Position numbers and translations under genes: made by a program. Of a DNA stretch of 64,000 bases, positions 11,355-52,257 are shown piece after piece. The notes under the pieces are model-generated. The model was not told where the DNA came from and did no database searches. It was given only the letters and a program-made list of their open reading frames with translations. Location of the stretch: the NCBI RefSeq assembly GCF_004341505.2, contig NZ_SLYP02000002.1, positions 1-64,000 of the forward strand, in the 5' to 3' direction. This stretch comes from Sphingomonas sp. JUb134 (GTDB lineage: Bacteria > Pseudomonadota > Alphaproteobacteria > Sphingomonadales > Sphingomonadaceae). Position 1 is the first letter of the stretch, and each line of letters opens with the position of its first letter.

Positions 11355-11520
11355 TGTAGGCGCTTGCAATCATAACGGCGCCTGCTCGCAAACAGCCAGA
11401 TTTTCTGCTCACGCTATCTGCCACTGGCGCGTGGCAACCTGCTCAAATTATCTGCCAGTGTGCTCGCCATTATCCGGCGCTGCTTGCAAACGAGGCGTCA
11501 TGCTCACGCTTTCTACCAGT
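11355..11520 (+). repeat. Left terminal inverted repeat of the 41-kb unit
   Basis: About 166 bp matching the reverse complement of 52090-52257, with roughly four in five bases equal by eye and one exact run of 32 bases (11405-11436). It contains a repeated TGCTYRC-type motif starting near 11361, 11383, 11406, 11440, 11461, 11481 and 11501, so mostly 20-23 bases apart, and a palindrome TGCCAC-N6-GTGGCA. These look like multiple transposase-binding sites. Confidence 0.85.
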
Positions 11521-11871
11521 GGGTTCTCCAAACCCGTCGCCGGCAGACGCTTTTGCGAAGCACGTTTTCAGAACAGTTCTGACAAGCGGCGGGCAGCAGA
11601 AATGCGGTGCGGTCATGGCCCGCCGGCAAGGTCGTCAGAAAGGAAGGCTTTTGCGAACAGCGGGTGGCGCATAGAGCGGGCACAGATATACGTTTACGAC
11701 TGAACCAGTCGAAGCGCGCTGGCCGCGACCGTCCCGAATGGGATCAATGGTCGGGATAGGATTCTCTTCATGCCCCAGCCGGTATAAAGGAACCGCCCCG
11801 ATCGTAGCGGCTGCGTCGTTATCCCGCCTACCCAACCCGTGGGCTCGACCTTCGGCCCAGCCGGGCCCGCC
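11521..11871. other. Non-coding stretch inside left end
   Basis: No gene is supported in these 351 bases. The only clear structure is the palindrome TCAGAACAGTTCTGA (11568-11582), two exact 7-bp arms around a central A, which could be an operator or a relic of an insertion-sequence end. Confidence 0.5.
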
Positions 11872-11994
11872 TCAACGTGGCCCGTCGACTGCGATGACCG
11901 CGGCGTCGTCTAGCTGGAACCGGCCAAAGTCGTCGTCGCCCCATAACGAACGCTCCAGCCGGCCGACAAGCCGGATCGGCTTCCCGGTCGGCAT
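11872..11994 (-). CDS. Possible 40-aa protein, unknown
   Basis: ATG 11994 opens MPTGKPIRLVGRLERSLWGD and ends AAVIAVDGPR. The composition is protein-like, but there is no clear ribosome site and no recognised motif. It may be the end of a longer truncated gene, since the frame is open a little upstream. Confidence 0.25.
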   Translation of the reverse strand: MPTGKPIRLVGRLERSLWGDDDFGRFQLDDAAVIAVDGPR

Positions 11995-12016
11995 TGACCC
12001 ATAAGGCAGCGAGTAT

Positions 12017-12496
12017 TCATGGTTTTGCGTCGAGGGAGCCGATCATAGGCAGGAATACGGCACAACCCGTTTCCTTGCAGGAAAGATCAAGCACCAGGTT
12101 CTTCCCCGATCCGTCGTTCCGCCCAGCAAACGTCCACAGAAGGCTGCGGCGCTCGGGATAGTTCGGGTCGGCGACACGGTAGGAAGCTACGCCTGCGGGG
12201 CGGCCGTCGAGCGTGAGCTGATCCGCTTTGTAGTTGGTCCCGGAGCTCGCGATCGGCAGCGCCGATCCTCGGCCTGTCACTGTGAACATGCCTTCGTAGC
12301 CCGGCCCGCGCAGCAGGAACACCGGATCGTCTACCGGGTCCTTTCCCGCCTTCAGAGTCGCATCTGATGGAATGGCGACCGTGCAGCACGAAGGGATCCC
12401 GACCGACTTCCAGCCGGCCGGGACCTCGGGTTGCGGTGCGTTCGGCGAGCAGGACACTAGCAGCAATCCCGCTACCGACCACACCGCGACCCTCAT
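12017..12496 (-). CDS. Predicted lipoprotein, unknown function
   Basis: 159 residues from ATG 12496, beginning MRVAVWSVAGLLLVSC: a type II signal with lipobox LVSC, so an outer-envelope lipoprotein is predicted. The mature part contains a Cys-Cys pair (GIPSCCTVAIP) and beta-rich segments. Its start follows the metalloprotease stop after one base, so the two are translationally coupled; a partner or inhibitor of that protease is possible but unproven. Confidence 0.65.
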   Translation of the reverse strand: MRVAVWSVAGLLLVSCSPNAPQPEVPAGWKSVGIPSCCTVAIPSDATLKAGKDPVDDPVFLLRGPGYEGMFTVTGRGSALPIASSGTNYKADQLTLDGRPAGVASYRVADPNYPERRSLLWTFAGRNDGSGKNLVLDLSCKETGCAVFLPMIGSLDAKP

Positions 12497-12497
12497 A

Positions 12498-13016
12498 TCA
12501 CCGCACTCCGTAGGCGTTGCGAAGCGCTGTCGTCTCCGTCGAGCACGGGGTGCGACGCACCACGCCCGCCGGCTGACTATAGTGCATGACGCACGCCGTG
12601 TTGTTGGCTTCACCGAAGCCCAAAGCATGGCCGAGCTCATGCGTCATGGTCGACTCATAATCAAACGAGCCGGAAGGAGGGCTCGACCGAGTAGACGGGC
12701 AATGGAACCGCCCACCCGACTCATCGCCATAATACCAGAGGTAATCGGCCTTCACGATCACGTCTGCCTGGGTGATGGTCGATCCGCTGGTCCACAGGTT
12801 GGTCGACGCGAGGGCGGTCGAGTTGGTGGGATAGCCGTCCTCCACGGTCACGATCTGAGCCGTGGTCTCGGTCCCTCGCGTGGTGGTCAGGTTATTCGCC
12901 GCGTCCCACTGATAGTAGAAGCGCGACCCTTGAGCGTTCCAGTTGCTGACCGCTCGCCCGAGGGCAGGGTCGCAGCCCGCCGGCATGGCGATGTGCAGGT
13001 ACACCGACTTGGTAGG
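12498..13016 (-). pseudogene. Matrixin-like zinc metalloprotease, 5'-truncated
   Basis: The C-terminal ~170 residues of a secreted metalloprotease. The zinc motif is THELGHALGFGE, i.e. HExGH with Glu at the usual third-His place, followed by a Met-turn-like CVMHYS. No signal peptide can be read: the frame continues past about 13016 only as antisense of the TraA fragment on the other strand, so the natural 5' end was lost at that junction. Several cysteines remain. Probably inactive or unexpressed unless driven by chance sequences. Confidence 0.7.
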
Positions 13017-13019
13017 GAC

Positions 13020-13637
13020 ATGTTCGCGGGCTTCCGGCCCAAGCCTGCCGCCACGCCGGAGAAGGCACCTACCCCGGATCGTGCTGGCGCGGCGAGCGGC
13101 GGCAAGCCGGATCAGGCCAGGGCGATCGAACGCTATGCGCGGGCGTCGGCCGACATAGGCCGGATGCGCGCGCAGGAGCTGCCGGTGCTGCCGCATCAGG
13201 AGAGCGCGTTGCGCCGCGCCGGCGAGGCGCTGGACCAGGTGCGGCCCGATGCTGCGCGCGACCTCGCTTCCGCGTTCCGTCGCGATCCTGGGCTGATCGG
13301 GCAGGCGGCGGAGGGCAAGACCGGCGGCGCGGTGCGCGCGATGGCCGAGGAGCGCCGGGTGCGGCTCGACTCCGACGCGCGCGCCGACCGGTTTGTGGAG
13401 AGTTGGCGGGGACTGGCGCGCGAGCGGGCAGGCGGCGACCAGGTCCGGGCCGAGAAGGCTACCACGCGCATGGGCGCGATGGCCGAGGGCCTGCGCCGGG
13501 ACCCTGAGCTGGCGAAGGCGCTGGAGCGCCGCGCGCCCGAGCTGGAGCTGAAACTGGAGCGCGGCCGGAGCATCGAGAAATCGCTGGAGCAGTCGATCGG
13601 GATCGGCCGCGAGCGCGACAGGGGCATGAGCCTATAA
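13020..13637 (+). pseudogene. C-terminal fragment of a Ti-type TraA relaxase
   Basis: 205 codons from ATG 13020 (MFAGFRPKPA) resembling the tail of sphingomonad TraA/MobQ relaxase-helicases: RAIERYARASADIGRMRAQE, LPVLPHQESALRRAGEALD and the closing SIGIGRERDRGMSL. The relaxase and helicase domains are missing, so it cannot nick DNA. It is followed 11 bases later by a DUF6118 gene, its usual neighbour, showing that a piece of a MobQ-type plasmid was captured. The 5' break coincides with the truncated metalloprotease. Confidence 0.7.
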
Positions 13638-13648
13638 GGGGATGACGT

Positions 13649-14356
13649 GTGACGGATGAAGAAGGGCCGAATGAAGCCGCACAGGCGTTCGAAGAGCTGC
13701 GCGCCGAGGTGACGCTGATGCGCCGTGCCGTCGAGCGGCTGACGGCCGAGCGCATGGAGGTGCCGGAACCGCCCGACTATTCCGAGACGTTAGGCGTGAT
13801 CGCCAACAACATCACCGCCACCGCGCAGCGCGTCGATATGCTGGTCAAAAGCCCGATGCTGGCGATGACGCCCGAGCTATTGGCGGGACGGATCACCGCG
13901 GCGGCAAGCACGGCGCGCCAGGAAGACCGGCAGACGATCGCTACGGCGCGCACCGGCCTGGAGGACGTGACGCGCCAGCTTCACAGCTATGTCGTGTCGG
14001 CGCGGCGTGGCGATGAGCAGAACCGCTGGCTGATGTGGAGCGCGATCGGCGGGATTGTGGTCGGCATGATCCTGTGGGCGGTGTTCGCCGGCATTGTCGC
14101 GCGCGCCGTGCCCGCGAGCTGGCAATGGCCGGAGAAGATGGCGGCACGCTCGCTCGACCTGCCGATGTGGGAAGGCGGCCAGCGCCTCATGCGGGCAAGC
14201 GCGCCCGACGCTTTCGCCAACATCGCCGCGGGTGATCGAATTGTGACCGCCAATCGTGAGGTGCTGGAGGCGTGTCAGAAGCGCGCCAACAAGACAGGAA
14301 AATCGGTGCAGTGCACCGGCACGGTCGAGCCAGTAGGCAAAGAGGCTCGTAAGTGA
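13649..14356 (+). CDS. DUF6118-like membrane protein (TraA neighbour)
   Basis: 235 residues from GTG 13649 with AGGGG upstream. An acidic coiled N-terminal region (EAAQAFEELRAEVTLMRRAV) is followed by one membrane span (about residues 132-152, SAIGGIVVGMILWAVFAGIV) and a cytoplasmic or periplasmic tail. It sits directly after the TraA tail as in many sphingomonad plasmids. A role in mobilisation is inferred from context only. Confidence 0.65.
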   Translation: MTDEEGPNEAAQAFEELRAEVTLMRRAVERLTAERMEVPEPPDYSETLGVIANNITATAQRVDMLVKSPMLAMTPELLAGRITAAASTARQEDRQTIATARTGLEDVTRQLHSYVVSARRGDEQNRWLMWSAIGGIVVGMILWAVFAGIVARAVPASWQWPEKMAARSLDLPMWEGGQRLMRASAPDAFANIAAGDRIVTANREVLEACQKRANKTGKSVQCTGTVEPVGKEARK

Positions 14357-14423
14357 GGGTAATCGTCTTGCAATCCGTATTACAAGGCAATACCAGAACA
14401 TACATGGTACGCCGGAGAGGCAT

Positions 14424-14591
14424 ATGGCAGACGATATCGTTGTAACAGTGCGGGTGCCGAAGAAGCTCGCGCAAAAGGCACGGCAAGTTGCTGATAGTCG
14501 TGACGAAACAGTGAGTCAGGTCATCCGGCGAGGCTTGCGTGGCTATGTGGGTCGCGCGCCAAAATCGATTAAGAATGAGGACGCAGCCTAA
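14424..14591 (+). CDS. Ribbon-helix-helix DNA-binding protein (55 aa)
   Basis: Begins MADDIVVTVRVPKKLAQKAR, the beta strand plus first helix of a CopG/Arc-type ribbon-helix-helix, then SRDETVSQVIRRGLRGYV as second helix. Its TAA stop overlaps the ATG of the MT-A70 methylase (TAATG at 14589-14593), so translation is coupled. It is most likely a regulator of the restriction-modification genes, standing where a controller protein would be. Confidence 0.75.
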   Translation: MADDIVVTVRVPKKLAQKARQVADSRDETVSQVIRRGLRGYVGRAPKSIKNEDAA

Positions 14592-15277
14592 TGTCAGAAT
14601 CCAAGCGCAAGGCGTCCAAGAAGTCACCGGATTATAGTCCGGCAGCTATGGATCTGTTGAACGTCGCAGGGGGCGGCAATTTCAGAACAGTACTGGCGGA
14701 TCCGCCGTGGCAGTTTCAAAACCGTACCGGGAAGGTGGCACCCGAGCACCGCCGCCTAAACCGCTACGGGACAATGACGCTGGACGAGATTTGCGAGCTA
14801 CCGGTGCAGGAGTGCGTTGCGCCAACCGCCCACCTCTACCTGTGGGTGCCTAATGCGCTCTTGCCGGACGGCTTGCGTGTAATGCGGGAATGGGGCTTTG
14901 AGTATAAATCCAACATCGTATGGCGGAAGATCCGCAAGGATGGCGGATCTGATGGTCGGGGCGTGGGATTCTATTTCCGCAACGTTACAGAACTGATCCT
15001 ATTTGGCGTCCGGGGCAAGAACGCCCGCACGCTTGATCCGGGTCGGACACAGGTGAACTATCTTGAGAGCCGCAAGCGGGAGCACAGCCGTAAGCCTGAC
15101 GAGCAATATCCGCTGATTGAGGAATGCAGCCCCGGCCCGTTCTTGGAGATGTTCTCGCGTGGAACGCGGCCGGATTGGACCGTATGGGGCAACCAGGCGG
15201 ACGAGGAATATACCCCTTCCTGGCCGACGTATGCCCATCACTCTAGGGCTGGGCTGGTGGCGGAAGCGGCTGAATAG
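14591..15277 (+). CDS. MT-A70 family N6-adenine DNA methyltransferase
   Basis: 228 residues. The catalytic motif DPPW is at residues 37-40 (TVLADPPWQF), followed by the MT-A70 landmarks HLYLWVPNALLPDGL, WGFEYKSNIVWRK and a C-terminal RGTRPDWTVWGNQ. It is predicted to protect the recognition site of the convergent BglII-type restriction gene, whose 3' end overlaps it by 35 bases. The target sequence cannot be read from the gene. Confidence 0.88.
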   Translation: MSESKRKASKKSPDYSPAAMDLLNVAGGGNFRTVLADPPWQFQNRTGKVAPEHRRLNRYGTMTLDEICELPVQECVAPTAHLYLWVPNALLPDGLRVMREWGFEYKSNIVWRKIRKDGGSDGRGVGFYFRNVTELILFGVRGKNARTLDPGRTQVNYLESRKREHSRKPDEQYPLIEECSPGPFLEMFSRGTRPDWTVWGNQADEEYTPSWPTYAHHSRAGLVAEAAE

Positions 15278-16112
15278 GCTCAGCAAGGATCTCCTGCTCC
15301 TCCTCGCCCTCGGCGATGGCGCCCACGTCGAGATGCTCATCGAAAGTGACGATTGAGCTGGGTAGTCCAATGAGGAGGAGCGGGCATGGATTGCCGACGC
15401 CGCGGTGCACGCGATCTTCTAGCTTTCGCCAATGGGTCGTGGCGGCCCCATATTTATCCTTCACGAAACTAAGCGACCAAGCGTCTGCAAAGGTCGCGCC
15501 GCCTGCTCGCATACGCCGAGCAACATCGGCCTTCTGCCGGGGGGTGGGCGTCAGTCCCAAAGATCCAAGGTCATCACTCGACTCCAGACCCCGCTCGGTT
15601 GCAAACCGGCGGACGAGCTGCACCATGTCGTCCTGTAGGCTCGATCCCCGCGTGACAATCACGCCAACGCTGATCGCCCCCTCCGCGTGCAGCCGCTTAA
15701 AGTTCTCCAGGTCGCGGTCGAAGAATGGATCCTTGTTGTTCCACTCGATTTCGAGCGCGATGACGCGGCCATCGGCGAAGGTACGGACATGATCGACCTC
15801 ATGGGAGATCGACTCCCTTTGGACGCCGTTGATGCGCTTTTCGATCGTGAAATTGACCTTGTGCCAGCCCAGCTCGGCCAAGGCGCGCCGGAGACGCTGA
15901 GTGCCCTTTGTCTCGCCTCCACCCGAGCCGATGATCTCCTCAATTGGGATGGATAGCGCGCCGAGCGCCGCTTCCAACTCCCCGATCGCGTCGGGAAAAT
16001 CGACGCTCAGGATGGCCGTGGCATGGCTGTGAAACTCAATTTGGAAGCCGCGAGCGGCCAGATCTTCAAACATGCTCGTCCAAGAGTCGCTTCTGATGCG
16101 CCCAGGTGCCAT
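15243..16112 (-). CDS. BglII/BstYI-type restriction endonuclease
   Basis: 289 residues from ATG 16112; the frame continues to 16178 but that would overlap the divergent neighbour. Segment HEVDHVRTFADGRVIALEIE matches the BstYI/BglII active-site layout, giving candidate metal ligands Asp107, Glu121 and Glu123, and it is followed by WNNKDPFFDRDLENFKRLH and a VGVIVTRG strand. Family members cut GATC-centred sites such as AGATCT or RGATCY. The C terminus has an added tail with PLLLIGLPS then an acidic stretch. It pairs with the MT-A70 gene in a type II system. Confidence 0.85.
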   Translation of the reverse strand: MAPGRIRSDSWTSMFEDLAARGFQIEFHSHATAILSVDFPDAIGELEAALGALSIPIEEIIGSGGGETKGTQRLRRALAELGWHKVNFTIEKRINGVQRESISHEVDHVRTFADGRVIALEIEWNNKDPFFDRDLENFKRLHAEGAISVGVIVTRGSSLQDDMVQLVRRFATERGLESSDDLGSLGLTPTPRQKADVARRMRAGGATFADAWSLSFVKDKYGAATTHWRKLEDRVHRGVGNPCPLLLIGLPSSIVTFDEHLDVGAIAEGEEEQEILAEPIQPLPPPAQP

Positions 16113-16139
16113 AGATTGCCGGGCTAGGGCGAGGCCCCT

Positions 16140-16631
16140 ATGCTCACCGAGGCGATTGCGCACGAGAGGATTGGCCACCTATCCGACTTTGCCGGCAAGC
16201 GGGTAGAGCGGTGGTGGGTGGATGCCCTGTTTCTCGCACTAGATCGTCTCATTGAGGATAGGGAGCTGGACGGAGAGCGCGTCAGCCCTGAGCGCTACGG
16301 CTCCCTATTGGGGCGATCGAGCTTCGCCCAAATTGCGGGTGCCCGCAGCTTGGAGAAGGATCTTGCGACCAAGCACCTAGTCGCCCTCTACACCGCTTGT
16401 GGCGGTAGAGAGCGCTTTTCCGATCAGCACGTCCGTGAGCGGACGGAACTGACCATACCCGATGTTCAATGGTTTGCCGCTAACGACAATCGACCCCAGG
16501 GAGCTGTGCATCCCTCAAATCCACGGTTCACTACCCGCTCTGCTGAGGCCTTGGCGGGCGATTTTACATTGGAGGATCTGGGCTTCATCTTCGTTCCTTC
16601 GTCACTACGACGAAGCCCAGATCCTCCTTAA
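16140..16631 (+). CDS. Hypothetical protein beside the restriction gene
   Basis: 163 residues, divergent from the endonuclease gene with a start only 27 bases away. Charged and helical (ERIGHLSDFAGKRVERWWVD, LALDRLIEDRELDGE). The 3' end is unusual: the last codons lie in a 16-bp inverted repeat (16571-16627), which also suggests that the natural C terminus may have been altered. I do not recognise the family; an accessory role in the restriction system is only suggested by position. Confidence 0.55.
   Translation: MLTEAIAHERIGHLSDFAGKRVERWWVDALFLALDRLIEDRELDGERVSPERYGSLLGRSSFAQIAGARSLEKDLATKHLVALYTACGGRERFSDQHVRERTELTIPDVQWFAANDNRPQGAVHPSNPRFTTRSAEALAGDFTLEDLGFIFVPSSLRRSPDPP
16571..16627. 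repeat. 16-bp perfect inverted repeat
   Basis: GGAGGATCTGGGCTTC (16571-16586) and GAAGCCCAGATCCTCC (16612-16627) are exact inverted copies around a 25-base loop that itself contains TTCGTC/GACGAA. It could be a terminator for the preceding gene or a recombination scar; there is no T-run. Confidence 0.8.
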
Positions 16632-16640
16632 ATCACAACC

Positions 16641-16787
16641 TCAAATCTGTGCCATTGGTGCTGACGGCGGACACGCGACCTTGGTGAGCTTCGAATCCGT
16701 GCCCGCGGACTTGAACGCGAACGCGGCCCCGGCTGCCGCGGTGCTGGCGACGGCCGCTCCAACGAGCACCTTCTGCTTCGTGTCCAT
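16641..16787 (-). CDS. Small exported or membrane-anchored peptide (48 aa)
   Basis: MDTKQKVLVGAAVASTAAAA begins a signal-like hydrophobic segment, followed by a short polar tail with one Cys. Its ATG overlaps the stop of the tandem-ABM gene by one base (TGATG), so it is translated from the same message. Function unknown. Confidence 0.45.
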   Translation of the reverse strand: MDTKQKVLVGAAVASTAAAGAAFAFKSAGTDSKLTKVACPPSAPMAQI

Positions 16788-17461
16788 CAGACTGTCCCTC
16801 TCTCAAGGGGCCGCGCGACCGACGTGTTCCTGCTCGTCCTCTCCTCATCACCAGCGGATGCAATCTTGAACGCCAAGATTTGTGCGCGGTGGATCTGGGG
16901 AGGCTCGGCGAACAGCGAAGCAGCGCTTCCGGATAGCGCCGTGCCGATTTCGCCCGACAGATGCGTCTCGCGCCCTGCCTCGTCGGCGAAGGTATCGAGG
17001 ATGGCGAACCGAGTCTTTCCGAGACGCAGAGCGTACCACGACAGGGTGCCAGGCTCCCGCTCCACGGCCGATCGGGCTCCTTGGAGGAAGCGGGCAACCT
17101 CTTCCTCCGCACCGTCCCGTGCTTCAAGCGGAACATGCAGGGCCAAGCGCGGCAGGGCGTCCGCCGCCGGCACCTTGAGGGCGAGGATGTCGGCCGGCTC
17201 GATCTCCGGCAATCCGTTGAGGATGGTGAAGGTCTTCACGACCAGCGCCCGGCCGACCGTGCCGAACAGATGCTTCAGCCGGCCGGCATTGCCGGGGAAG
17301 GTATCGAAGATGGCGAAGTCGGCGGGGCCAAAGCGCAGCGCGTACCAGTGCCGCGTGTCCTGCTCATGCTCGACCGGCTCCAGCGCACCCCGGAGGAATT
17401 CAGCGGCATCTTCCTGGTGGGTCGGCCCGGCTTCAATGCCTACGAACAGTGCCTTGTGCAT
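16787..17461 (-). CDS. Tandem ABM-domain protein (quinol monooxygenase-like)
   Basis: 224 residues with two similar halves. Each has the antibiotic-biosynthesis-monooxygenase pattern: an opening strand, HWYALRFGPADFAIFDTFP in the first half and SWYALRLGKTRFAILDTFA in the second, then an H-x-x-G segment. ABM folds act in cofactor-free oxidation of quinols or as unknown stress proteins. It lies between restriction genes and redox enzymes. The tandem layout points to a monomeric pseudo-dimer. Confidence 0.75.
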   Translation of the reverse strand: MHKALFVGIEAGPTHQEDAAEFLRGALEPVEHEQDTRHWYALRFGPADFAIFDTFPGNAGRLKHLFGTVGRALVVKTFTILNGLPEIEPADILALKVPAADALPRLALHVPLEARDGAEEEVARFLQGARSAVEREPGTLSWYALRLGKTRFAILDTFADEAGRETHLSGEIGTALSGSAASLFAEPPQIHRAQILAFKIASAGDEERTSRNTSVARPLERGTV

Positions 17462-17514
17462 CTTTTCTCTCCTTGTTCCGATGGTAGCGCCTCGAGCTCC
17501 ACGGAAGGCGTCCT

Positions 17515-17693
17515 GGGCCTAAATCATGGGAAGTTCGCGCGGCCGGGCGCCGACAGCCCGTTCGGCCAGGGCGACTTCCCCGGCCCGCGCACCCCTGGCG
17601 GGCGCGTGCTGGAGGAGATCGCGGCCAGCCACGGCGCGACCGCACGCCAAGTGGCGCTTCGCTTCCTGGTGCGTCGGCCATCGCTGTTCGCTA
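17515..17693 (+). pseudogene. Aldo/keto reductase C-terminal remnant
   Basis: A short stretch reading FGQGDFPGPRTPGGRVLEEI, then HGATARQVALRFLVRRPSLF, typical of the C-terminal third of aldo/keto reductases. It has no start or catalytic residues and breaks off where an IS5-type inverted-repeat end begins (17694-17713). A deletion remnant. Confidence 0.7.
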
Positions 17694-17713
17694 TGGTCAA
17701 CGAGTCCTGACCC
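17694..17713 (-). repeat. Solitary IS5-type inverted-repeat end
   Basis: TCAACGAGTCCTGACCC ending at 17713 matches the inverted end of the IS5-family element found in chrA (40888 onwards), and it is followed by TA, the target duplication used there. No transposase accompanies it, so it is a scar of a former copy joined to the aldo/keto reductase remnant. Confidence 0.7.
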
Positions 17714-17743
17714 TAGGTCTGCCGACATACTTGGTCGCAAGCT

Positions 17744-17788
17744 GATCGACACCGCCGCTACACGTGCTCCAAAGCGGCGGTGTCGATC
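17744..17788. repeat. 16-bp perfect inverted repeat
   Basis: GATCGACACCGCCGCT (17744-17759) pairs exactly with 17773-17788 around a 13-base loop. It lies 39 bases past the 3' end of the alcohol-dehydrogenase-like gene and may act as its terminator, although no T-run follows. Confidence 0.75.
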
Positions 17789-17826
17789 GGCATCGATAAG
17801 CGTCCTGTTCCCGGTTATTCCGCCAA

Positions 17827-19002
17827 TCAACCGTGCGGGCGCATAACAACCTTGATCACACCTTCTTCCTTGTCGCGGAATTTAGCGTACATTTCTGGCG
17901 CGTCTTCAAGACTGGCCGGGTGGGTGATCACGAAGCTGGGGTCGATCGCGCCCGCGACGATTTTTTCCAGCAACGGTCTAGTATAGCGCTGCACGTGGGT
18001 TTGGCCGAGCTTGATCGTTAGTCCTTTGTTCATCGCTGCACCGATCGGAAGCTTGTCACCCATCCCGACGTAGACGCCGGGCACGGAGACCGTGCCGCCC
18101 TTGCGGCAGCTCATGATCGCCTGCCGCAGGACGTGGACGCGATCAGTGGCGAGCATCATGCTTGCCTTCACCTTGTCCATGACCGCGTCCGCCGCCCCGT
18201 GCGCGGCCGCCTCGCAGCCGACAGCATCGATGCAGCTGTCGGGGCCCCGGCCCTTGGTTCGCGCCTGCAGCTCGTCGTAGACATCGGTTTCGGCGAAGTT
18301 AATCGTCTCAGCGCCACCGGCCTCCGCCATGGCGAGTCGCTCGGGCACCTCGTCGATCGCGATCACGCGGCCGGCGCCCATCATCAGCGCGGAGCGGATG
18401 GCGAACTGGCCGACCGGACCGCAGCCCCAGATCGCGACGGTGTCGCCATGCTCGATCTGCGCATTCTCGGCGGCCATGTAGCCGGTCGGGAAGATATCCG
18501 ATAGGAAGAGGGCCTGCTCGTCGGTAACGTTGTCGGGAATCTTGATCGGACCGACATCCGCCATCGGCACGCGGAGATACTCCGCCTGACCGCCGCAGTA
18601 GCCGCCCAGCATGTGGCTGAAGCCGAACAGCCCGGCGGGCGAATGGCCCATCGCCTTGGCGGCCATCTCGGCGTTCGGATTGGTCCGATCGCAGGCCGCA
18701 AACAGACCCTTCTTGCAGAACCAGCAATCGCCGCAGCTGATCGTGAACGGCACCACCACCCGGTCCCCGATCTTGAGGTTGGTGACCTCGGACCCGAGCG
18801 CCACGACCTCGCCCATGTTCTCGTGGCCGAGGATGTCGCCGGCCTCCATGGTGGGCTGGTAGCCATCCAGCAGGTGAAGGTCCGACCCGCAGATCGCGCA
18901 GGCGGTTACTTTGATGATCGCATCGCGCGGGTGCTTGATCTCGGGATCCGCAACGGTGTCGACGCGGACATCGCCTTTACCGTGCCAGCATAGTGCGCGC
19001 AT
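17827..19002 (-). CDS. Zinc-dependent alcohol/formaldehyde dehydrogenase-like protein
   Basis: 391 residues of the medium-chain dehydrogenase family. Catalytic zinc ligands are in [14 protein letters not shown] and [10 protein letters not shown]; the structural zinc loop is [15 protein letters not shown]; the NAD-binding Rossmann motif is [11 protein letters not shown]. The long central insertion and the segment [15 protein letters not shown] are typical of the glutathione-independent formaldehyde dehydrogenase-like subgroup. It oxidises alcohols or aldehydes in the cytoplasm; substrate not certain. Nearby katE suggests a detoxification island. Confidence 0.88.
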
Positions 19003-19101
19003 GTCGTTTCCTCATCTGAGTGCATGTCCCTGTCGTCAGGGCCATGTCTATGACGCTCAACGCCTTGAGCCGCGGCATGGGTCCCTGTCCATTTGATTCG
19101 T

Positions 19102-21844: not shown

Positions 21845-21855
21845 CGACCCTGGCG

Positions 21856-21884: not shown

Positions 21885-21939
21885 ACTTAACGGCAAGCCT
21901 CATATCGCACGGACGTGGGACGTGCTGCCTCGCTCGCGT

Positions 21940-44147: not shown

Positions 44148-47100
44148 GCAAGGACTGGTTCGGCCACCTTGCGGCGTCGCTGAAAACGCGACGCCCATGC
44201 GGTGATCGCCGGCAGCACCAGCAGCGTCAGCGCGGTCGACGTGATGAGGCCGCCGATGACGACCGTGGCGAGCGGGCGCTGCACCTCCGCACCCGTGCCG
44301 GTGGCGAGCGCCATCGGTACGAAGCCGAGCGACGCAACCAGCGCCGTCATCAGAACCGGACGAACCCGCTCCATCGCACCATCGGCGATAGCCCGATCAT
44401 CGTCCTCGCCTTCCTCGCGGTGCTTGCGGATCGCGCCCATCATGACGAGGCCGTTGAGGACCGCGACGCCCGACAACGCGATGAACCCGACTGCGGCAGT
44501 GATCGAGAAGGGAATGCCGCGCAGCAGCAGGGCGAAGACGCCGCCCGCGAGCGCCATCGGCACCGCGGAGAAGACGATCAGCGCGGGGATGAAGCCGCCA
44601 AGCGCCATGTAGAGCAGCGCATAGATCGCCAAGAAGCAGATCGGCACCACCAGCATCAGGCGAAGCCGCGCCGATTGCAGACTCTCGAAGGTGCCGCCCC
44701 AACCGGTATACATGCCGGCAGGAAGCGGCATCGCATCAATGCGGGCTTCGGCTTCCTTGACGAAGCCGCCAAGGTCGCGTCCACGCACATTGACCTGAAC
44801 GGTCATCATGCGCTTGCCGTTCTCGCGGCTGATCTGATTCAACCCTTGCGTATAATTGAACCGCGCCACCTCGCGCAGCGGGATCGAGCGCGCGGTCTGT
44901 CCCTCGGGCGTCGGCAGCATGACCGGGATCGCGCCCAGCGTATCGATGTCGTCACGCTGCGCGTCGGGCAGGCGCACCACCACCGAGAAGCGCCGATCGC
45001 CCTCGAATAACAGCCCGGCTTCCCGGCCGCCCAGCGCGGCCGAGACGGTGTTCGCCACCTCCTCGACCGAGAGGCCAAGCCGTCCGGCAGCCTGGCGGTC
45101 GATCTGCACGTCGAAGGTGGGGGCGCCGTCCGTCTGCTCGACGCTGACGTCGCCCGCGCCCGGGATGGTGCGCACCGCATTGGCGATCTTCTGGGCCTGT
45201 GCGGTCATTGCATCGAGGTCGTCGCCATAGAGCTTGATCGCCACGTCGGCGCGGACGCCGGCGATCAGCTCGTTGAAGCGCATCTGGATCGGCTGCTGGA
45301 TTTCGGTCCGGTTGCCGATGACCCCCTTCATCCGCTCCTCGATGCGGGCGATGATATCCTCCTTGGTCTTTACCTCCGCCGGCCATTCGCTTTCCGGCTT
45401 GGGAATGACATAGGTGTCCGACGAGTTGGGCGGCATGGGATCGGTGCCGAGGTCGGCGTTGCCGTTCTTGGAGAAGACCAGCGCCACCTCCGGCAGCGTC
45501 TTCAACGCATCCTCGATCCGCATCTGCATCTGCGTCGACTGGTCGATCGAGGCCGAGGGCACGCGGAAGTTGGTGACGGTGATGTCCTTCTCGTCGAGCT
45601 GCGGCATGAACTCCTCGCCGAGGAAGCCGAAGCAGAACACCGCCGCGACGAACACGCCGGCACCGGCCGTGATGAAGGGCAACGGTCGGGCGATCGCCTT
45701 GCCCAGCAGCGGCGCATACCGCTCCTTGAACCAGCGGATCGGCTTCACCTCCGTTTCGCTGACCCGGCCCTTGATAAGGATCACGATCATCGCCGGCACG
45801 AAGGTCAGCGACAGGACGAAGGCGCAGGCCAGCGCGATCATCAGCGTCGTCGCCATCGGCGAGAACGTCTTTCCCTCGACGCCCTGGAACGTGAGCAGCG
45901 GGACGAAGACGAGGAAGATGATAAGCTGGCCGAAGACGGTCGGCCGGATCATCTCCTTCGCCGATGCGGCGGTCGTCTCAAGGCGCTCGTCCAGCGTCAG
46001 CAGGCGGTTCTCGGCGTGCTGGCGCTCGGCGAGGTGGCGCAGCGCATTCTCGACGATGATGACCGCCCCGTCGACGATCAGGCCGAAGTCGAGCGCGCCC
46101 AGGCTCATCAGATTGCCGGATACGCCCAGCGCATTCATGCCCGATGCCGTCATCAGCATCGTGATCGGAATGACCGCGGCGGTGATGAGCGCGGCGCGGA
46201 CGTTGCCGAGCAACAGGAACAGGACGACGATGACGAGCAACGCGCCCTCGATCAGGTTTTTCTCGACCGTCGCGATCGTCGCGTTGACCAGCTTCGAGCG
46301 GTTATAGACGGGTTCGGCGAATACATCGGGCGGCAGCGTCCGGTTGACCTGTTCCAGCTTCTCTCCGACCGCGGTCGCGACGATGCGGCTGTTCTCGCCT
46401 ACCAGCATCAGCACGGTCGAGATGACCGCCTCCGATCCCATGCGGCTGCCCGACCCGGTGCGGACCGCACCACCGATCATCACTTGCCCGACGTCCTTGA
46501 CCCGCACGGGCACGCCGTTGCGGGTGGCGACGACCGCCTCCTGGATGTCCTCGATCGACTTCAGGCGGGCATCGGCGCGAACCAGAAAGCTCTCGCCGGC
46601 GCGGCGCACATAGTTCGAGCCTGCCGAGACGTTCGCCCGCTCCATCGCATCGGCCAGCTCGGTGATCGAGATGCCGTAGGAGGCGAGCGCATTGAGGTTG
46701 GGTTCGATCAGATACTGTTTGACATAACCGCCATTGGAATCGACCCCGGCAACGCCCTTCACGTTGCGCATCTGCGGCCGGATGATCCAGTCCTGCACCG
46801 TGCGCAGATAGGCAGCCTTGGCGAGTTCGGTGGTCAGCCGCTCGCCCTCCGGCGTCAGATAGCTGCCGTCCGACTGCCAGCCCGGCTGACCATCGACCGT
46901 CTTCACGCCCTTGCCGTCCGGGTGACGGAAGGCGATCGAGTAGAAGAAGATCTCGCCGAGGCCGGTGCTGAGCGGCGCGAGGTTGGGTTGCACGCCTGCC
47001 GGCAGGCTGTCCTTCGCCTGGGCGAGCCGTTCCGTGACCTGCGCCCTCGCGAAGTAGATGCTGGTCGCGTCGGTGAAGACCGCCGTCACCTGGCTGAAGC

Positions 47101-47365
47101 CGTTGCGCGAGAAGGAGCGCGTCATCTCCAGCCCGGGGATGCCCGCCAATGCCGTCTCGACGGGGAACGTCACCTGCTTTTCGACATCGACCGGGCCGAG
47201 CGAGGGGACGAAGGTGCTGATCTGCACCTGACGGTTGGTGACGTCTGGCACCGCGTCGATCGGCAGCTTGGTGATCTGCCATGCCCCGAACGCGACGACG
47301 ACGAGGGTCAGGAACGCGACCAGCCATCGGAGGCGAACCGATGTCGAAAGGATGCGCTCGATCAT
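44144..47365 (-). CDS. czcA: CzcA-type heavy-metal RND transporter
   Basis: 1,073 residues. N-terminal TKLPIDAVPDVTNRQVQIST and VEKQVTFPVETALAGIPGLE are typical of CzcA. The fourth-helix motif DFGLIVDGAVIIVEN carries the proton-relay Asp residues of the Co/Zn/Cd class. It is the last gene of the operon MFS - small protein - czcC - czcB - czcA; its start overlaps the czcB stop by 4 bases and its end overlaps the convergent superoxide dismutase by 4. Confidence 0.95.
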   Translation of the reverse strand: MIERILSTSVRLRWLVAFLTLVVVAFGAWQITKLPIDAVPDVTNRQVQISTFVPSLGPVDVEKQVTFPVETALAGIPGLEMTRSFSRNGFSQVTAVFTDATSIYFARAQVTERLAQAKDSLPAGVQPNLAPLSTGLGEIFFYSIAFRHPDGKGVKTVDGQPGWQSDGSYLTPEGERLTTELAKAAYLRTVQDWIIRPQMRNVKGVAGVDSNGGYVKQYLIEPNLNALASYGISITELADAMERANVSAGSNYVRRAGESFLVRADARLKSIEDIQEAVVATRNGVPVRVKDVGQVMIGGAVRTGSGSRMGSEAVISTVLMLVGENSRIVATAVGEKLEQVNRTLPPDVFAEPVYNRSKLVNATIATVEKNLIEGALLVIVVLFLLLGNVRAALITAAVIPITMLMTASGMNALGVSGNLMSLGALDFGLIVDGAVIIVENALRHLAERQHAENRLLTLDERLETTAASAKEMIRPTVFGQLIIFLVFVPLLTFQGVEGKTFSPMATTLMIALACAFVLSLTFVPAMIVILIKGRVSETEVKPIRWFKERYAPLLGKAIARPLPFITAGAGVFVAAVFCFGFLGEEFMPQLDEKDITVTNFRVPSASIDQSTQMQMRIEDALKTLPEVALVFSKNGNADLGTDPMPPNSSDTYVIPKPESEWPAEVKTKEDIIARIEERMKGVIGNRTEIQQPIQMRFNELIAGVRADVAIKLYGDDLDAMTAQAQKIANAVRTIPGAGDVSVEQTDGAPTFDVQIDRQAAGRLGLSVEEVANTVSAALGGREAGLLFEGDRRFSVVVRLPDAQRDDIDTLGAIPVMLPTPEGQTARSIPLREVARFNYTQGLNQISRENGKRMMTVQVNVRGRDLGGFVKEAEARIDAMPLPAGMYTGWGGTFESLQSARLRLMLVVPICFLAIYALLYMALGGFIPALIVFSAVPMALAGGVFALLLRGIPFSITAAVGFIALSGVAVLNGLVMMGAIRKHREEGEDDDRAIADGAMERVRPVLMTALVASLGFVPMALATGTGAEVQRPLATVVIGGLITSTALTLLVLPAITAWASRFQRRRKVAEPVLA

Positions 47366-48522
47366 TCCTCGCCTCCCACGTTCTTTTCGAGTTCGGCCTT
47401 GATGAGGAAGGCGTTGGTCGTGGCGATCTGCGTGCCCGCGCTAATACCTTCGGCAACGGCGACCATGCCGCCAGAGCGGTTGGCAATGCGGATAGGCTGC
47501 GCCTTGAACCCCTGCGGCGTCCGGACAAACACCACCGTCCTATCGCCCAGCGTCTGCACGGCATCCTGTGGGACCATGACGCCGCCCTTGGTCGCACCGC
47601 CGCTGGCCAGGATGCGCGCCTGGACGAGCTGTCCGGGTGCGAGCGTGCTGGTGCCGGCGGTCGGCGTCACCACGATCGTCGCGGTGCGCGACTGCGGATC
47701 AACGACGCCTGTTGCGGCACGGACCCGGCCTTCAATGGTGCGGCCATCACTGGTGCTCAGCTCGACCCGATCGCCGGTGCGGACCCGCATGGCATCGGCC
47801 GGGGGCACGTTGGCGGTGATCTGGAATCGACGCGGATCGGCGACCCGGAACAGCTCGGTTTCCGCCGCGACATACTGGCCGAGATTGGCAGCAGCAGCAG
47901 TCACACGGCCGGCGATCGGGCTGATGATCGCCACGGAGCGTCCGTCGCCGGTAACACGCGCGGCGCCTGCCGCGGCGCTGGCACGGCGCGCGTCGGCCTG
48001 AGCCACCGCGAGGTTGGCCTGTGCGGCCTCGTAGTCGGCACGGGGACTGACGCCCTGTGCGAGCAAGGTCCGTTCGCGCGCGAGCTGGCGCTGGGCGAGC
48101 GTCACGCGCGCCGATGCCGATGAACGGTCGGCCGCGATCTGCGAGGCGTCCCGGCTTTCGACCAGGGCGAGTGTCTGGCCTGCCCGGACAGGATCGCCGA
48201 TCCGCGAGAAGATGCGCGTGATCGTCCCCGGTGCGCGGGCCGTCAGCAACGCTTCCGCGTCCGGTGTGGCCTCAACCGTCGCGGAGGCGATGACAGCAGC
48301 ATCCAGCTCGCCTGAAGCGGCAGGGGCGACGGTGATCTGCGACGTCGCAATAGCTTGCGGCGTGATGACCAGCCTGTCGTTCGACGCTGCCGGTGTGGCG
48401 GCTTCTGTCGGGGCCGGTGTCGGAACAGGTGCCTGGGTGAGGCGTGCGACGCCGAAACCGAGCGCGGCAGCCGCGACCAGCCCGATGGCGGCCCCGGCAT
48501 AGAGACGATGTTTTCCGGTCAT
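47362..48522 (-). CDS. czcB: CzcB-type periplasmic adaptor
   Basis: 386 residues. N-terminal membrane anchor (LYAGAAIGLVAAAALGFGVA), coiled-coil hairpin (RVTLAQRQLARERTLLAQGV) and lipoyl/beta-barrel domains (RAPGTITRIFSRIGDPVRAGQ). It bridges CzcA and CzcC. It overlaps both neighbours by 4 bases. Confidence 0.92.
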   Translation of the reverse strand: MTGKHRLYAGAAIGLVAAAALGFGVARLTQAPVPTPAPTEAATPAASNDRLVITPQAIATSQITVAPAASGELDAAVIASATVEATPDAEALLTARAPGTITRIFSRIGDPVRAGQTLALVESRDASQIAADRSSASARVTLAQRQLARERTLLAQGVSPRADYEAAQANLAVAQADARRASAAAGAARVTGDGRSVAIISPIAGRVTAAAANLGQYVAAETELFRVADPRRFQITANVPPADAMRVRTGDRVELSTSDGRTIEGRVRAATGVVDPQSRTATIVVTPTAGTSTLAPGQLVQARILASGGATKGGVMVPQDAVQTLGDRTVVFVRTPQGFKAQPIRIANRSGGMVAVAEGISAGTQIATTNAFLIKAELEKNVGGEE

Positions 48523-49778
48523 TGGACCGCTTCTCCGGTGATGCTGAGGCCCGACAGGCGGGCAAGGTTGGCGCGGGCGTCGAGACGCGCGATGTCGGCG
48601 TCGAGGATGACGCCTCGGGCGGCGCCGAGATTGTGACGGGCGGCAAGCAGTTCGATCAGCGGTGCCTTGCCCGCCTCATAGGCGATACGTGCAAGGCGAT
48701 ACGCCTCCTCGGCGGTCCGCATCGTTCGCTGTGCGGCTACCGCGCGCGTATCGGCGGCCTGCACGAGGACGAAAGCGGCCCGCGCGCCGGTCTCCGCTTC
48801 GAGCCGCGCCGCTGCGGCGCGGGCTTCGGCTCCCTGAAGATCGGCACGGGCTGCATCGATATTGCCCCGGTTGCGATCGAAGAACGGCAGCGGCACCGAT
48901 ACCCCGGCGACGACGGCGGGGCCGCTGGCGACGCGAAGCTGGCGAACGCCAAGCTGCGCCGTGATGTTGGGAACAGCAAGCCGTTGCTGTACCGTAACGG
49001 CTCTTGCAGCTGCCTCCCGTTCCGCTTCCGCGACCTTGACCGTCGTTGCCTGCATCGGATCGACCGGTCCGCTCGACGGTCGCGCGTTCATCCGATCGAG
49101 CAGGGATTCCCCAACCCCGGTGAACGTCGTCGGGGAACCTGCCAAGCCTGAAAGCCGCGCGAGCGCCGCTGTCTTCTGGGCACGCGCGACTTCAAGATCG
49201 GCTTCGAGGGTCGCGAGTTCGGTTTCCGCCTGAAGCTGGCGCAACCGTGCTTCCTTGCCGGCACCGACAAGGGCGCGAGCGACCTTCAGGTCGGCGGTCG
49301 CCTCCTCCACCTCGTCCTCGGCGAGCGCGATCCGGCGTTCCGCTACCTCGGCACTCGCATAGGCGCGCGCCAGTTCAGTGGCGAAGAGCAGACGGCCATC
49401 GCGGTTCCGTGCTTGCGCCGCGGCGATGCCCGCCTCCCCGGCCGCGATCCGGGCGGAACGCTTGCCCCCCAGCTCAATCGGCTGATCGATCTGGAAGGTG
49501 GTCTGCTGCTGATTGCGCGCGTTGTTCTGCAAGTCGCCGGCGAAGTTCTCGGCGTAGACGTTGATGAAGGGATTGGGCCGCGCGCGCGCCTGTTCGGCAA
49601 GGCCTTGCGCGCGGGCCACGTCCGCATCGAGGGCGGTCACGCGCGGAGCCGTCTGCGCCTGACGCAGGAGCTGGGCGAAGGGTGGTGCCGTCTGCGCACC
49701 GGCCGTGCCGATGGGGCACAGCATTACGAGCATACCGGCCAGCGCAAGCCTGCGCTGCCGGCGACTGGGGCCGTTCAT
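48519..49778 (-). CDS. czcC: CzcC-type outer-membrane efflux protein
   Basis: 419 residues from ATG 49778. Signal peptide (LALAGMLVMLCPIGTAGAQ), then two outer-membrane-efflux repeats with the coiled-coil helices typical of TolC-like proteins (RPNPFINVYAENFAGDLQ; FFDRNRGNIDAARADLQGAE). The exit duct of the Czc pump. Confidence 0.92.
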   Translation of the reverse strand: MNGPSRRQRRLALAGMLVMLCPIGTAGAQTAPPFAQLLRQAQTAPRVTALDADVARAQGLAEQARARPNPFINVYAENFAGDLQNNARNQQQTTFQIDQPIELGGKRSARIAAGEAGIAAAQARNRDGRLLFATELARAYASAEVAERRIALAEDEVEEATADLKVARALVGAGKEARLRQLQAETELATLEADLEVARAQKTAALARLSGLAGSPTTFTGVGESLLDRMNARPSSGPVDPMQATTVKVAEAEREAAARAVTVQQRLAVPNITAQLGVRQLRVASGPAVVAGVSVPLPFFDRNRGNIDAARADLQGAEARAAAARLEAETGARAAFVLVQAADTRAVAAQRTMRTAEEAYRLARIAYEAGKAPLIELLAARHNLGAARGVILDADIARLDARANLARLSGLSITGEAVQ

Positions 49779-49831
49779 GATCTTCTTCCTGCAAAGGTGA
49801 GCTTGGTGGCGCGGTTGGCGCCGGTGCCGGC

Positions 49832-50173
49832 TCAGGCTCGTGGAGGTCGAAGAAACTCTGCGGGGTCGATCCCTCCGGGCAGACGAGCGGTGCCGATCAT
49901 CCATTGCCGGTCGGCAACGAGGATCATCCGCTCGGACGGGAGCGCCCCGTCAAACGCTACCCAATGCCCTGTCGCGTGCGCCAACACATGGATCGGTGCA
50001 TCGGGATCGGATTTCTCGGGCGTATCGTGGCTATGCTCGATCACTGACGCATGGATCGCATCGTCGTCATGGACGATCGCATTGTGCCACCCCGACAGGC
50101 CGATCAGGCCGAGCATGGCGACGAGCGCCAGCACGGCGCCCAGCAGCGCGGATCGAGGATGACGCATAGGCAT
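49832..50173 (-). CDS. Small His/Asp-rich exported protein of the czc operon
   Basis: 113 residues from ATG 50173 (MPMRHPRSALLGAVLALVAM). A hydrophobic leader or anchor is followed by a periplasmic part rich in His and Asp (HNAIVHDDDAIHASVIEHSH), a plausible metal-binding stretch. It lies between the MFS gene and czcC in the same direction. A periplasmic metal chaperone is a reasonable guess; similar small genes often start czc operons. Confidence 0.65.
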   Translation of the reverse strand: MPMRHPRSALLGAVLALVAMLGLIGLSGWHNAIVHDDDAIHASVIEHSHDTPEKSDPDAPIHVLAHATGHWVAFDGALPSERMILVADRQWMIGTARLPGGIDPAEFLRPPRA

Positions 50174-50214: not shown

Positions 50215-51540
50215 TCACCGGTTCGGCCACTTCGGATGACGGCGATCGATCACGAAAGCATGATCGCCCTTGGCGTGCTCTGCGTGGTGGGGATCGTCGG
50301 CGGGTAGATCGGCATGGTCATGCGGAATGACGTCCGGATCATGCGCCGGCCATAGGCGAAGCGCCGCGACGACGCCGATCGCGGACAGCGCCGCCATGCC
50401 GACGAAGGCCGCGCTCATGCTGACGCGAGCGCCCAACTGTCCGACGAGCGGATAGCAGATCAGCCAGCACACATGGCTGAGTGCGAACTGCGCCGCGAAC
50501 AGGGCGGGCCGGTCCTCGGCATTGGCCGATCGGCGAAGAAGTCGTCCGGACGGCGTGAGGCTTGCGGAGTAGGCGACGCCCATGACCAGCCAGCCCGCCA
50601 GCAGGACGTGCCAATAGGCAGCGCCCGGCGTCATCGTCGCGCTGATCGCGGCGAGCGCCGCGAGCGTGATCGTCAGCACGGCAGCGGCGACGATCATCAC
50701 CGTGCGATCGGCGATCCTGTCCAATACCCGCGGCAGGGTCAGCGCCGCGGTGATCGAGCCGCCTCCGAAGGCGGCGAGCGTCAGTGCGACATCGCGCTGG
50801 CTCAGGCCCAGGCCCTTCACGATGACGACGGTGTTGACGATGACCATCGCGCTCGCGGCAGCGGCGCTGAGCGTCAGGGCCAGCAGTCCGCGCAGGCGCG
50901 GCGTCCTGAGGTAGATGCGCGTTCCCCGCGTCGTTTTGTCGTAAATGCCGCCCTGATCCTCGACTGGTGCGGGCCGGGGCAGGACCGTCGAGACGACGAG
51001 CAGCGCCGAAGCGATGAAGCCGATCGCCGTGCCCGAGAACAACCAGTGATAGCTCATCACCGTCAGCAGGCCGGCCGCAAGGATGGGGCTGGTCAGGCTC
51101 TCCATGTCATAGGCGAGACGCGACAGCGACAGGGCGCGGGTATAGTCACGCTCATCCGGCAAAACGTCCGCGATGGTCGCCTGAAACGTCGGCGTGAACG
51201 CGGCCGACGCCGATTGCAGGACGAAGATCAGGACATAGACCTGCCAGACCTGGTTCACGAACGGCAGGCAGATCGCCACGGCCGCGCGGATCGCATCCAT
51301 GCTGACAAGCAACGCCCGCCGGGGTACGCGGTTGGCGAACGCTCCGGCGATCGGGGCGACGCCGATATAGGCGACCATCTTGATCGCGAGCGCCGTGCCC
51401 AGCACGGCCCCGGCGCTGCCACCAGCGATGTCATAAGCCAGCAGTCCCAGCGCAACGGTCGCAAGTCCCGTCCCGATCAATGCGATGATCTGGGCGAGAA
51501 ACAGATGACGGTAAGTCCGGTTTGCCAGGACGCTGAGCAT
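50215..51540 (-). CDS. MFS exporter with His-rich C terminus (NreB-like)
   Basis: 441 residues, twelve predicted spans; the MFS loop 2-3 motif region is GAFANRVPRRALLVSMDAIR. The cytoplasmic tail is His/Asp-rich (HDPDVIPHDHADLPADDPHH), as in NreB-type nickel exporters. The start codon lies 12 bases from an RcnR-type operator, so it should be induced by the metal sensed by the divergent regulator, most likely Ni or Co. Confidence 0.85.
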   Translation of the reverse strand: MLSVLANRTYRHLFLAQIIALIGTGLATVALGLLAYDIAGGSAGAVLGTALAIKMVAYIGVAPIAGAFANRVPRRALLVSMDAIRAAVAICLPFVNQVWQVYVLIFVLQSASAAFTPTFQATIADVLPDERDYTRALSLSRLAYDMESLTSPILAAGLLTVMSYHWLFSGTAIGFIASALLVVSTVLPRPAPVEDQGGIYDKTTRGTRIYLRTPRLRGLLALTLSAAAASAMVIVNTVVIVKGLGLSQRDVALTLAAFGGGSITAALTLPRVLDRIADRTVMIVAAAVLTITLAALAAISATMTPGAAYWHVLLAGWLVMGVAYSASLTPSGRLLRRSANAEDRPALFAAQFALSHVCWLICYPLVGQLGARVSMSAAFVGMAALSAIGVVAALRLWPAHDPDVIPHDHADLPADDPHHAEHAKGDHAFVIDRRHPKWPNR

Positions 51541-51551
51541 GGACGCCTCAT

Positions 51552-51591
51552 ATCCCCCTAGGGGGATGCCGTCTATCCCCCTGGGGGGATA
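51552..51591. promoter_or_regulatory. Two RcnR/CsoR-type operators
   Basis: ATCCCCCTAGGGGGAT (51552-51567) and ATCCCCCTGGGGGGAT (51575-51590) are near-identical palindromes 23 bases apart, between the divergent MFS and regulator genes. Dyads with G5-6/C5-6 arms and AT edges are the known operator form of the RcnR/CsoR/FrmR family. Confidence 0.88.
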
Positions 51592-51628
51592 CTCGACAAC
51601 ATCGGTGCCGGCATCCTACATTGAGGGC

Positions 51629-51898
51629 ATGTCTCATAACGCGCACTCCAGCCACCCGGCGATCATCAAGCGCCTGAACCGCGCAGCGGGTCATCTGCGC
51701 AGCATCGTCGGGATGATCGAGGAAGAGCGGCCATGCGTCGACATCGCCCAGCAGCTCCAGGCCGTCGAAAGCGCGATTGCCAGCGCCAAGCGCGCGCTCA
51801 TCAACGACCATATTGACCACTGCCTCGTTCATGCCGAGGAAGGTGAAGGGACGAAGGTTGCGGTCGAGCAGTTTCGGGCGATTTCGAAATACTGGTGA
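51629..51898 (+). CDS. RcnR/FrmR-family metal-responsive repressor
   Basis: 89 residues from ATG 51629, all-helical. Sensor residues by position: His3, Cys36 (ERPCVDIAQQL), His61 and His64 in NDHIDHCLV. Cys36-His61 spacing matches RcnR/FrmR. RcnR senses Ni/Co; FrmR senses formaldehyde. The neighbouring metal exporters favour a metal sensor, which would repress the MFS-czc operon and its own gene through the two operators. Confidence 0.88.
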   Translation: MSHNAHSSHPAIIKRLNRAAGHLRSIVGMIEEERPCVDIAQQLQAVESAIASAKRALINDHIDHCLVHAEEGEGTKVAVEQFRAISKYW

Positions 51899-51981
51899 CG
51901 CGGCACTCCGCTTTCCCGATTGGGAAGGTCGCGTGGGACGGCTGACGGCGGGAAGGCGCGCTCGATGGCAACGAGGGCGCC

Positions 51982-52022
51982 ATTTTCCCGAAATGTGTTC
52001 CCGATTGGCTTTTCCCGAAACT
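51982..52022. repeat. TTTCGGGAAA site cluster, copy B
   Basis: TTTCCCGAAA at 51984-51993 and 52011-52020, 27 bases apart as in copy A (4221-4257), with about 37 of 41 bases equal by eye in inverted orientation. A related TTCCC-N4-GGGAA sits at 51912-51925. It lies inside the right end of the 41-kb unit, 67 bases from the terminal inverted repeat. Confidence 0.7.
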
Positions 52023-52089
52023 GCCCGGTGCAGATGGAGAAACGGGACAACCTATGGCCGTCTGATCGACCTCCCCTTGGCGGTCGAAG

Positions 52090-52257
52090 CTGTTGGCAGA
52101 TAACGTGAGTGCGACGCCTCGTTTGCGAGCAGCGCCGGATGATGGCGAGCACATTGGCAGCTAATTCGAGCACGGTGCCACGCGCCAGTGGCAGATAGCG
52201 TGAGCAGGAAATAGCGCTGTTGGCGAGCAGACACCGCTACGATTGCAAGCCCCTACA
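52090..52257 (-). repeat. Right terminal inverted repeat of the 41-kb unit
   Basis: Read inward from 52257 it begins TGTAGGGGCTTGCAATC and follows the left repeat for about 168 bp, including the same TGCTYRC motif series and the TGCCAC-N6-GTGGCA palindrome. Similarity stops near 52090. Confidence 0.85.

Follow-up and report, generated by a model that had tools for sequence, protein, structure and literature searches.

TGT...ACA ends are a feature of insertion sequences (IS) of the IS481 type (PMC11406308), and a 6-bp target-site duplication (TSD) is found in the majority of IS481 members (PMC10045372). TnRErm46, an IS481-family unit transposon of Rhodococcus equi, has TGT-type ends, a 6-bp duplication (NCTAGN, with a central TA) and cargo genes; the genes listed for it include an ABC ATPase and a putative nucleotide kinase with an AAA motif, a recombinase not being among them (PMC6794481). 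ISAzs36 of Azospirillum sp. B510, annotated as IS481-like, has a recombinase gene before and an AAA ATPase gene after its transposase gene, and is listed on Salmonella plasmids (PMC12393075). Here we describe a unit of 40,903 bp (positions 11355-52257; the 41-kb unit) in a 64,000-nucleotide stretch of Sphingomonas sp. JUb134 (the window). It resembles TnRErm46 in ends, duplication length and the presence of cargo, but it carries no genes such as those of ISAzs36, whereas TnRErm46 has its own IS481 transposase and measures 6.9 kb (PMC6794481). The 41-kb unit is very probably a non-autonomous transposon of an IS481-type family that encodes a transposase, a TnsC/MuB-like AAA+ ATPase and a serine recombinase, and would be mobilised in trans.

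The unit opens with TGTAGG at 11355 and closes with CCTACA at 52257, with AATATC on both sides (Table 1). Its two terminal 164-bp ends, compared in inverted orientation, share 141 of 164 bases (86%). When 20,000 inverted pairs of 164 nt were drawn at random from the window, the highest number of matches was 74; the pair is also the sole inverted repeat of at least 40 nt reported in the window by a repeat search with a 14-base seed. The left terminal repeat contains six TGCT(C/T) motifs spaced by 20-34 bp, which we propose to be a transposase-binding array. The sequence TCCCGA(A/T)TGGGA marks the inner edge of each conserved end block (at 11732 and 51914) and has no further copy in the window, whichever strand is read. 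A breakpoint at 51914-51924 is recurrent, and no recombinase was tied to it or to this motif. The backbone has, at 4221-4259, a nearly identical, inverted copy of a 39-mer from the right block (51982-52020).

A first-pass annotation of the window had proposed these ends, coordinates and 6-bp duplication, all of which are exact, and had stated that the interrupted gene becomes whole when the unit is removed. The latter is borne out by three empty-site sequences, each with one AATATC. The gene encodes a 143-aa response regulator (Pfam Response_reg) and is intact in plasmid pSZ.B2R2_1 of S. hankookensis (locus L015, 44226-44657), which matches the window at 100% over 52258-57765 (the end of the fetched stretch) and at 99.3% over 11060-11357, and whose junction reads GGCAATATCCGTCCC. 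Two further empty junctions come from S. echinoides (L107) and from one of the contigs of Sphingomonas sp. 3P27F8 (L154), and the three regulator proteins are identical. In all three sequences a different unit with the same end type lies at GATACA, approximately 290 bp upstream of AATATC; both of its junctions are seen in pSZ.B2R2_1 and S. echinoides and the right one only in 3P27F8. Both copies of GATACA are exact in S. echinoides, and one copy is GATGCA, a point difference, in pSZ.B2R2_1. The right end of this second unit (L107; L015 44203) retains only about 20-27 bp of terminal sequence.

The occupied AATATC site recurs with both junctions in S. jejuensis (G055) and TPD3018, and with one junction in Ant H11 (right) and in a second contig of 3P27F8 (left). 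Strain 3P27F8 has both states, empty and occupied, perhaps on two replicons. The TPD3018 contigs (L135, L157), labelled Arthrobacter sp., carry sphingomonad plasmid DNA at 99.96%, which suggests mislabelling or contamination. These junctions bear on the possibility that two end copies simply happen to surround unrelated DNA, brought together by recombination or misassembly. Contig overlap does make one extra end copy in this assembly: contig C2 (411,323 bp) ends in 22,620 bases (388704-411323) that repeat its opening 22,620 (1-22620) without mismatch, and we rejected the further left-end copy at C2:400058 as an artefact of that overlap. Because its ends overlap in this way, the plasmid is probably circular, of about 388.7 kb, with the overlap left uncollapsed. 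The exact TSD, the empty sites and above all the matching junctions in independent genomes largely refute an artefactual or chance origin of the unit, to which we accord next to no likelihood.

A search with the left end gave hits in 60 of 72,556 plasmid records; most of these come from sphingomonads and rhizobia, and Serratia and Erwinia are among the few other sources. Within the host's family, 13 of 397 genomes were hit at E <= 0.001, several weakly. The ends of the 41-kb unit are those of a widespread IS481-type family. Its full members have genes for a DDE transposase of 550-567 aa, an ExeA/TnsC-like ATPase of 325 aa and a serine recombinase of 198 aa; 3,046 relatives of the transposase were found at E <= 1e-10 among 7,999 scored candidates. 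An element on Agrobacterium pC carries transposase and ATPase genes together with phosphonate-transport and phosphonate-dehydrogenase genes, and no recombinase is annotated inside it. Other relatives have family ends and no transposase, with lengths of 789/793 bp, 1,251 bp and 3.9 kb; the 3.9-kb units encode SulP and combine the same end blocks with other cargo. The 1,251-bp unit (L050, NZ_CP060038.1 10525-11775) has an exact TSD and a BrnT/BrnA toxin-antitoxin pair. The 789/793-bp mini-element lies at L012 922-1710 and at 12 genome loci (L106, L111, L115, L117, L124, L126, L128, L137, L138, L145, L160 and L161), two of which have identical flanks; in pDE7 its flanks also match, and a single 86-aa gene is annotated in it. 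The resemblance to MITE-like (miniature inverted-repeat) non-autonomous elements lies in family ends without family transposase, the 41-kb unit differing in its 40.9 kb and its resistance cargo. On the Pseudomonas plasmid of L038 (NZ_MH547561.1) the transposase-ATPase-recombinase trio adjoins a separate Tn7-like tns gene set, and L056 (MT838032.1), deposited as 'Bacteriophage sp.', carries the terminal 164 bp of the window at 100% and the right block at 99%, and may be a plasmid or transposon fragment.

Tn402/Tn5053 transposons are recognised by a 5-bp TSD, and the Tn3 family by a Tn3 transposase and GGGG-type ends. The 41-kb unit has a 6-bp duplication instead, 5 bp being found in one of 24 family elements; it starts with TGTAGG, and no Tn3 transposase is present among its scanned open reading frames. 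The family resembles Tn402/Tn5053 and TnsA-less Tn7-like transposons in its DDE transposase, its putative AAA+ partner, its resolvase, its TGT/ACA ends and its proposed arrays of transposase-binding sites (PMC8649781, PMC11406308). No TniQ gene is annotated beside the three-gene modules that we looked at, although no search was aimed at TniQ. In contrast to Tn402 and Tn7-like elements, the transposase of a full relative falls nearest to IS481 in NCBIfam (NF033577, E 1.1e-17), with a score of 64 bits that is below the curated cut-off of 224. A transposon derived from ISPa40, for which an IS481-like tnpA is mentioned, was discarded as a relative, ISPa40 being a Tn3-family element (PMC9952335). 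To the first-pass annotation, no element with a name was known to have these ends. Indeed, the literature searched (open papers only) does not contain the 13-mer TGTAGGCGCTTGC, and we recognised in it no description of the ends or of the 41-kb unit; however, the ends are not of an unknown class but of an IS481-type group with a named relative, ISAzs36, whose transposase is 61% identical to that of a rhizobial family member.

Family ends lie beside TA-centred hexamers. Among 24 elements, a count that leaves out two rows in which spare ends alone were compared, 13 have an exact 6-bp duplication, one has 5 bp, one has 6 bp with a mismatch and nine have none, and all 11 distinct exact hexamers have a central TA. 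A genome scan for ends holding an exact 20-base pattern, truncated ends being left out, yielded 74 full ends with a six-base flank in 62 stretches; TA is central in 73 of them and in 45 of 46 distinct hexamers, where TA makes up 2.0% of dinucleotides in the scanned stretches. The scan gave 16 end pairs, 14 of them with both flanks readable, and the flanks are identical in three of the 14.

The unit has both IS481 features, TGT...ACA ends and a 6-bp TSD (AATATC), but no IS481-type transposase, as expected of a non-autonomous element: tblastn with the family's transposase, ATPase and recombinase gave no trace of them in the window (best E 0.06). Since no family transposase is carried, the unit most likely moves only with enzymes supplied by a helper. 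What it does appear to retain is a resolution site. A 77-bp block beside the left end (11524-11600), which holds a dyad with 7-bp arms, is 77-85% identical to a stretch that lies 13 bp before the start codon of the recombinase gene in five of ten loci searched (L123, L039, L097, L014 and L109), and adjoins an end in L012, L128 and L131 as it does in the window; it is probably a res site. This retained block, and the end type shared with full members, would also fit an arrival of the unit with its own transposase, ATPase and recombinase genes and their later loss by internal deletion or cargo replacement. We regard this as rather unlikely: no remnant of the three genes is left in the window, and the same end blocks, likewise without genes, occur in SulP and mini units at other places, which points to a loss that predates this insertion.

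The host genome contains a 33% partial match to the transposase at two places, one 28% match to the ATPase and 15 matches to the serine recombinase (best 56%), and no close relative of the family transposase or ATPase. The two transposase matches belong to a cousin IS of about 3.07 kb with ends TGTAAACGCTCGCGC, present in two copies, one of which has a 6-bp TSD (CACGAG). It has TGT...ACA ends, a transposase gene, an ATPase-like gene (assigned by eye) and a recombinase gene 55-56% identical to the family's, the best recombinase match of the host, and could in principle act on the ends of the 41-kb unit. We consider this very unlikely, as its end sequence is different, its single known target lacks a central TA and its ATPase-like protein has no detectable similarity to the family ATPase; as the source of the unit's ends it was rejected on account of its different ends. 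The first-pass annotation had further held that movement of the unit would spread a multi-resistance island. The resistance cargo is there, but its mobility was overstated, as the unit has no transposase for its own ends and the host no close relative of one.

In the mechanism that we favour, helper proteins of a full family member would bind both arrayed ends and join the unit, via a cointegrate, to a 6-bp TA-centred target, which would thereby be duplicated; the recombinase would then resolve the cointegrate at the res-like block beside the left end. The cointegrate route is likeliest for this family because of the transposase type, the presence of a recombinase and the lack of an annotated TnsA gene in the modules seen, a reasoning published for Tn7-like elements (PMC8649781). 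A model of the family ATPase (mean pLDDT, the predicted local distance difference test, 74.7) aligns with TnsC and MuB. Searched against PDB sequences, the ATPase profile hit various ATPases, ABC ATPases among them, in their P-loop part, and the transposase profile gave six weak matches, the best to a retroviral integrase (E 0.029). Between the conserved end blocks, cargo would be exchanged by recombination and IS insertion, also after arrival at the AATATC site.

For the timing of that exchange, the interiors of relatives at this site were compared over their readable parts, the draft contigs breaking inside the unit. Segment 12612-16275 is missing at the corresponding point in S. jejuensis and 3P27F8, as it is in gentR, whose unit lies at another site; in TPD3018 it is present as far as 15612, where the contig stops. 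The sequence just inside the right block is of three kinds, one common to S. jejuensis and Ant H11, another in TPD3018 and a third in the window. Neither S. jejuensis nor Ant H11 has a near-identical match to the right-hand cargo (43076-51913). Because relatives that share the site differ inside the right end and in the restriction segment, a single event for the full 41 kb, as first proposed, is not demonstrated, although the insertion is clearly of transposon type. A smaller element, with the ends, the res block and less cargo, may have inserted first and received much of the 41 kb later, as IS elements inserted and as co-resident units recombined homologously at their end blocks. This scenario is compatible with the family assignment and agrees with the differing interiors and with the other cargo of the SulP units; we judge its chances to be even. 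The partial coverage of the interiors limits it, and so do copies of the halves elsewhere. In gentR (target GGTAGA) the 16276-25496 block comes behind the left end at 99.6% identity. In S. abaci (GGTAGA), S. panni (GCTACT) and S. echinoides (AGTAGG) the same end is followed by 1.5 to 2.9 kb from the start of this block, as much as 8-kb loci can show; S. abaci (L155) has a 98.8% copy of 45477-52257 with the right end at another site. Blocks thus do travel together with their end. The inner element of pISP3 contains other long reading frames.

Several observations weigh against a helper-dependent unit with exchanged cargo. TPD3018 has 43076-49310 and 49912-51926 at 99-100%, the latter at 100%, on contigs not linked to the insertion. 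With this cargo present there, the deviating neighbour at the TPD3018 right end could stem from a second unit or from a join made in assembly. Two of the ten loci searched, family members L013 and L098, gave no match to the res-like block. Flanks do not match in nine of 24 elements and ten of 12 mini-elements; mismatched flanks that keep the central TA would be expected where replicative transposition takes place inside one replicon and inverts or deletes the adjoining DNA. The ATPase model aligns with Cdc6/ORC at an equal or higher score than with TnsC, and the transposase model is too poor for use (mean pLDDT 58, catalytic core mostly below 50). Helper-dependent movement is itself a step that we infer from sequence comparison, and as the host genome yielded no helper suited to these ends, recent movement there is unsupported.

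If the unit is nonetheless a helper-dependent transposon, as we favour, this suggests that a large resistance cargo could move between sphingomonad plasmids without its own transposase, in units overlooked by any annotation that relies on transposase genes; such units could be found by sequence, from their conserved end blocks, their TA-centred target and their res-like site. A more far-reaching proposal, which we put forward with low confidence, is that sphingomonad plasmids share a gene-less chassis, consisting of a left end with res site, some 390 bp long, and a right block of some 340 bp, which would serve helper-dependent delivery and not represent decayed transposons. Cargo from less than 1 kb to 40 kb would be loaded and exchanged at edges that stay fixed, which in this unit carry TCCCGA(A/T)TGGGA, and the chassis would be moved in trans by a widespread transposase-ATPase-recombinase element.

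Table 1. Features of the 41-kb unit and its insertion site (window coordinates).
Feature	Position	Strand	Basis or remark
Empty GATACA site	11060..11065		Occupied by second unit, same end type, in pSZ.B2R2_1 and S. echinoides
Interrupted response-regulator gene, 5' part	11082..11354	+	Sequence comparison with empty site
TSD, left copy AATATC	11349..11354		Single AATATC at empty site in pSZ.B2R2_1, L107, L154
Left terminal inverted repeat, TGTAGG start	11355..11523	+	Sequence comparison
Remainder of conserved left block	11524..11744	+	Dyad TCAGAAC.A.GTTCTGA at 11568-11582, putative res site
Variable segment: relaxase-like remnant (by eye), DUF6118 gene, MT-A70 methylase, BglII-family endonuclease	12612..16275		Pfam
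Zn-dependent alcohol dehydrogenase, catalase, methyltransferase, PIG-L deacetylase, glycosyltransferase block	16276..25496		Pfam
IS cluster, limits approximate (from matches)	26001..30309		Pfam
IS110-family transposase gene in IS cluster	26666-27694	+	Pfam
IS110-family transposase gene in IS cluster	28465-29736	-	Pfam
Histidine kinase, response regulator, outer-membrane channel, RND efflux pump	30395..37345	-	Pfam
DUF347 protein, ChrB, ChrA (chromate)	37972..40974	+	Pfam
IS block: IS110-family transposase (41342-42436), DUF4096 fragment	40888..43075		Pfam
CzcA/CzcB/CzcC-type RND metal efflux operon	44144..49904	-	Pfam; relatives annotated CusA/CzcA family
MFS transporter	50215..51540	-	Pfam
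Metal-sensitive repressor (Trns_repr_metal)	51539..51898	+	Pfam
Conserved right block including terminal inverted repeat 52094-52257	51914..52257	-	Sequence comparison
TSD, right copy AATATC	52258..52263		Read from sequence
Interrupted response-regulator gene, 3' part	52264..52422	+	Sequence comparison with empty site

The cargo first reported for the unit, comprising metal-efflux, chromate, catalase and restriction genes, is recovered by Pfam (Table 1). The IS block at 40888-43075 is absent in one of the TPD3018 contigs without a link to the insertion, where the flanks are joined and the chromate genes run straight across.

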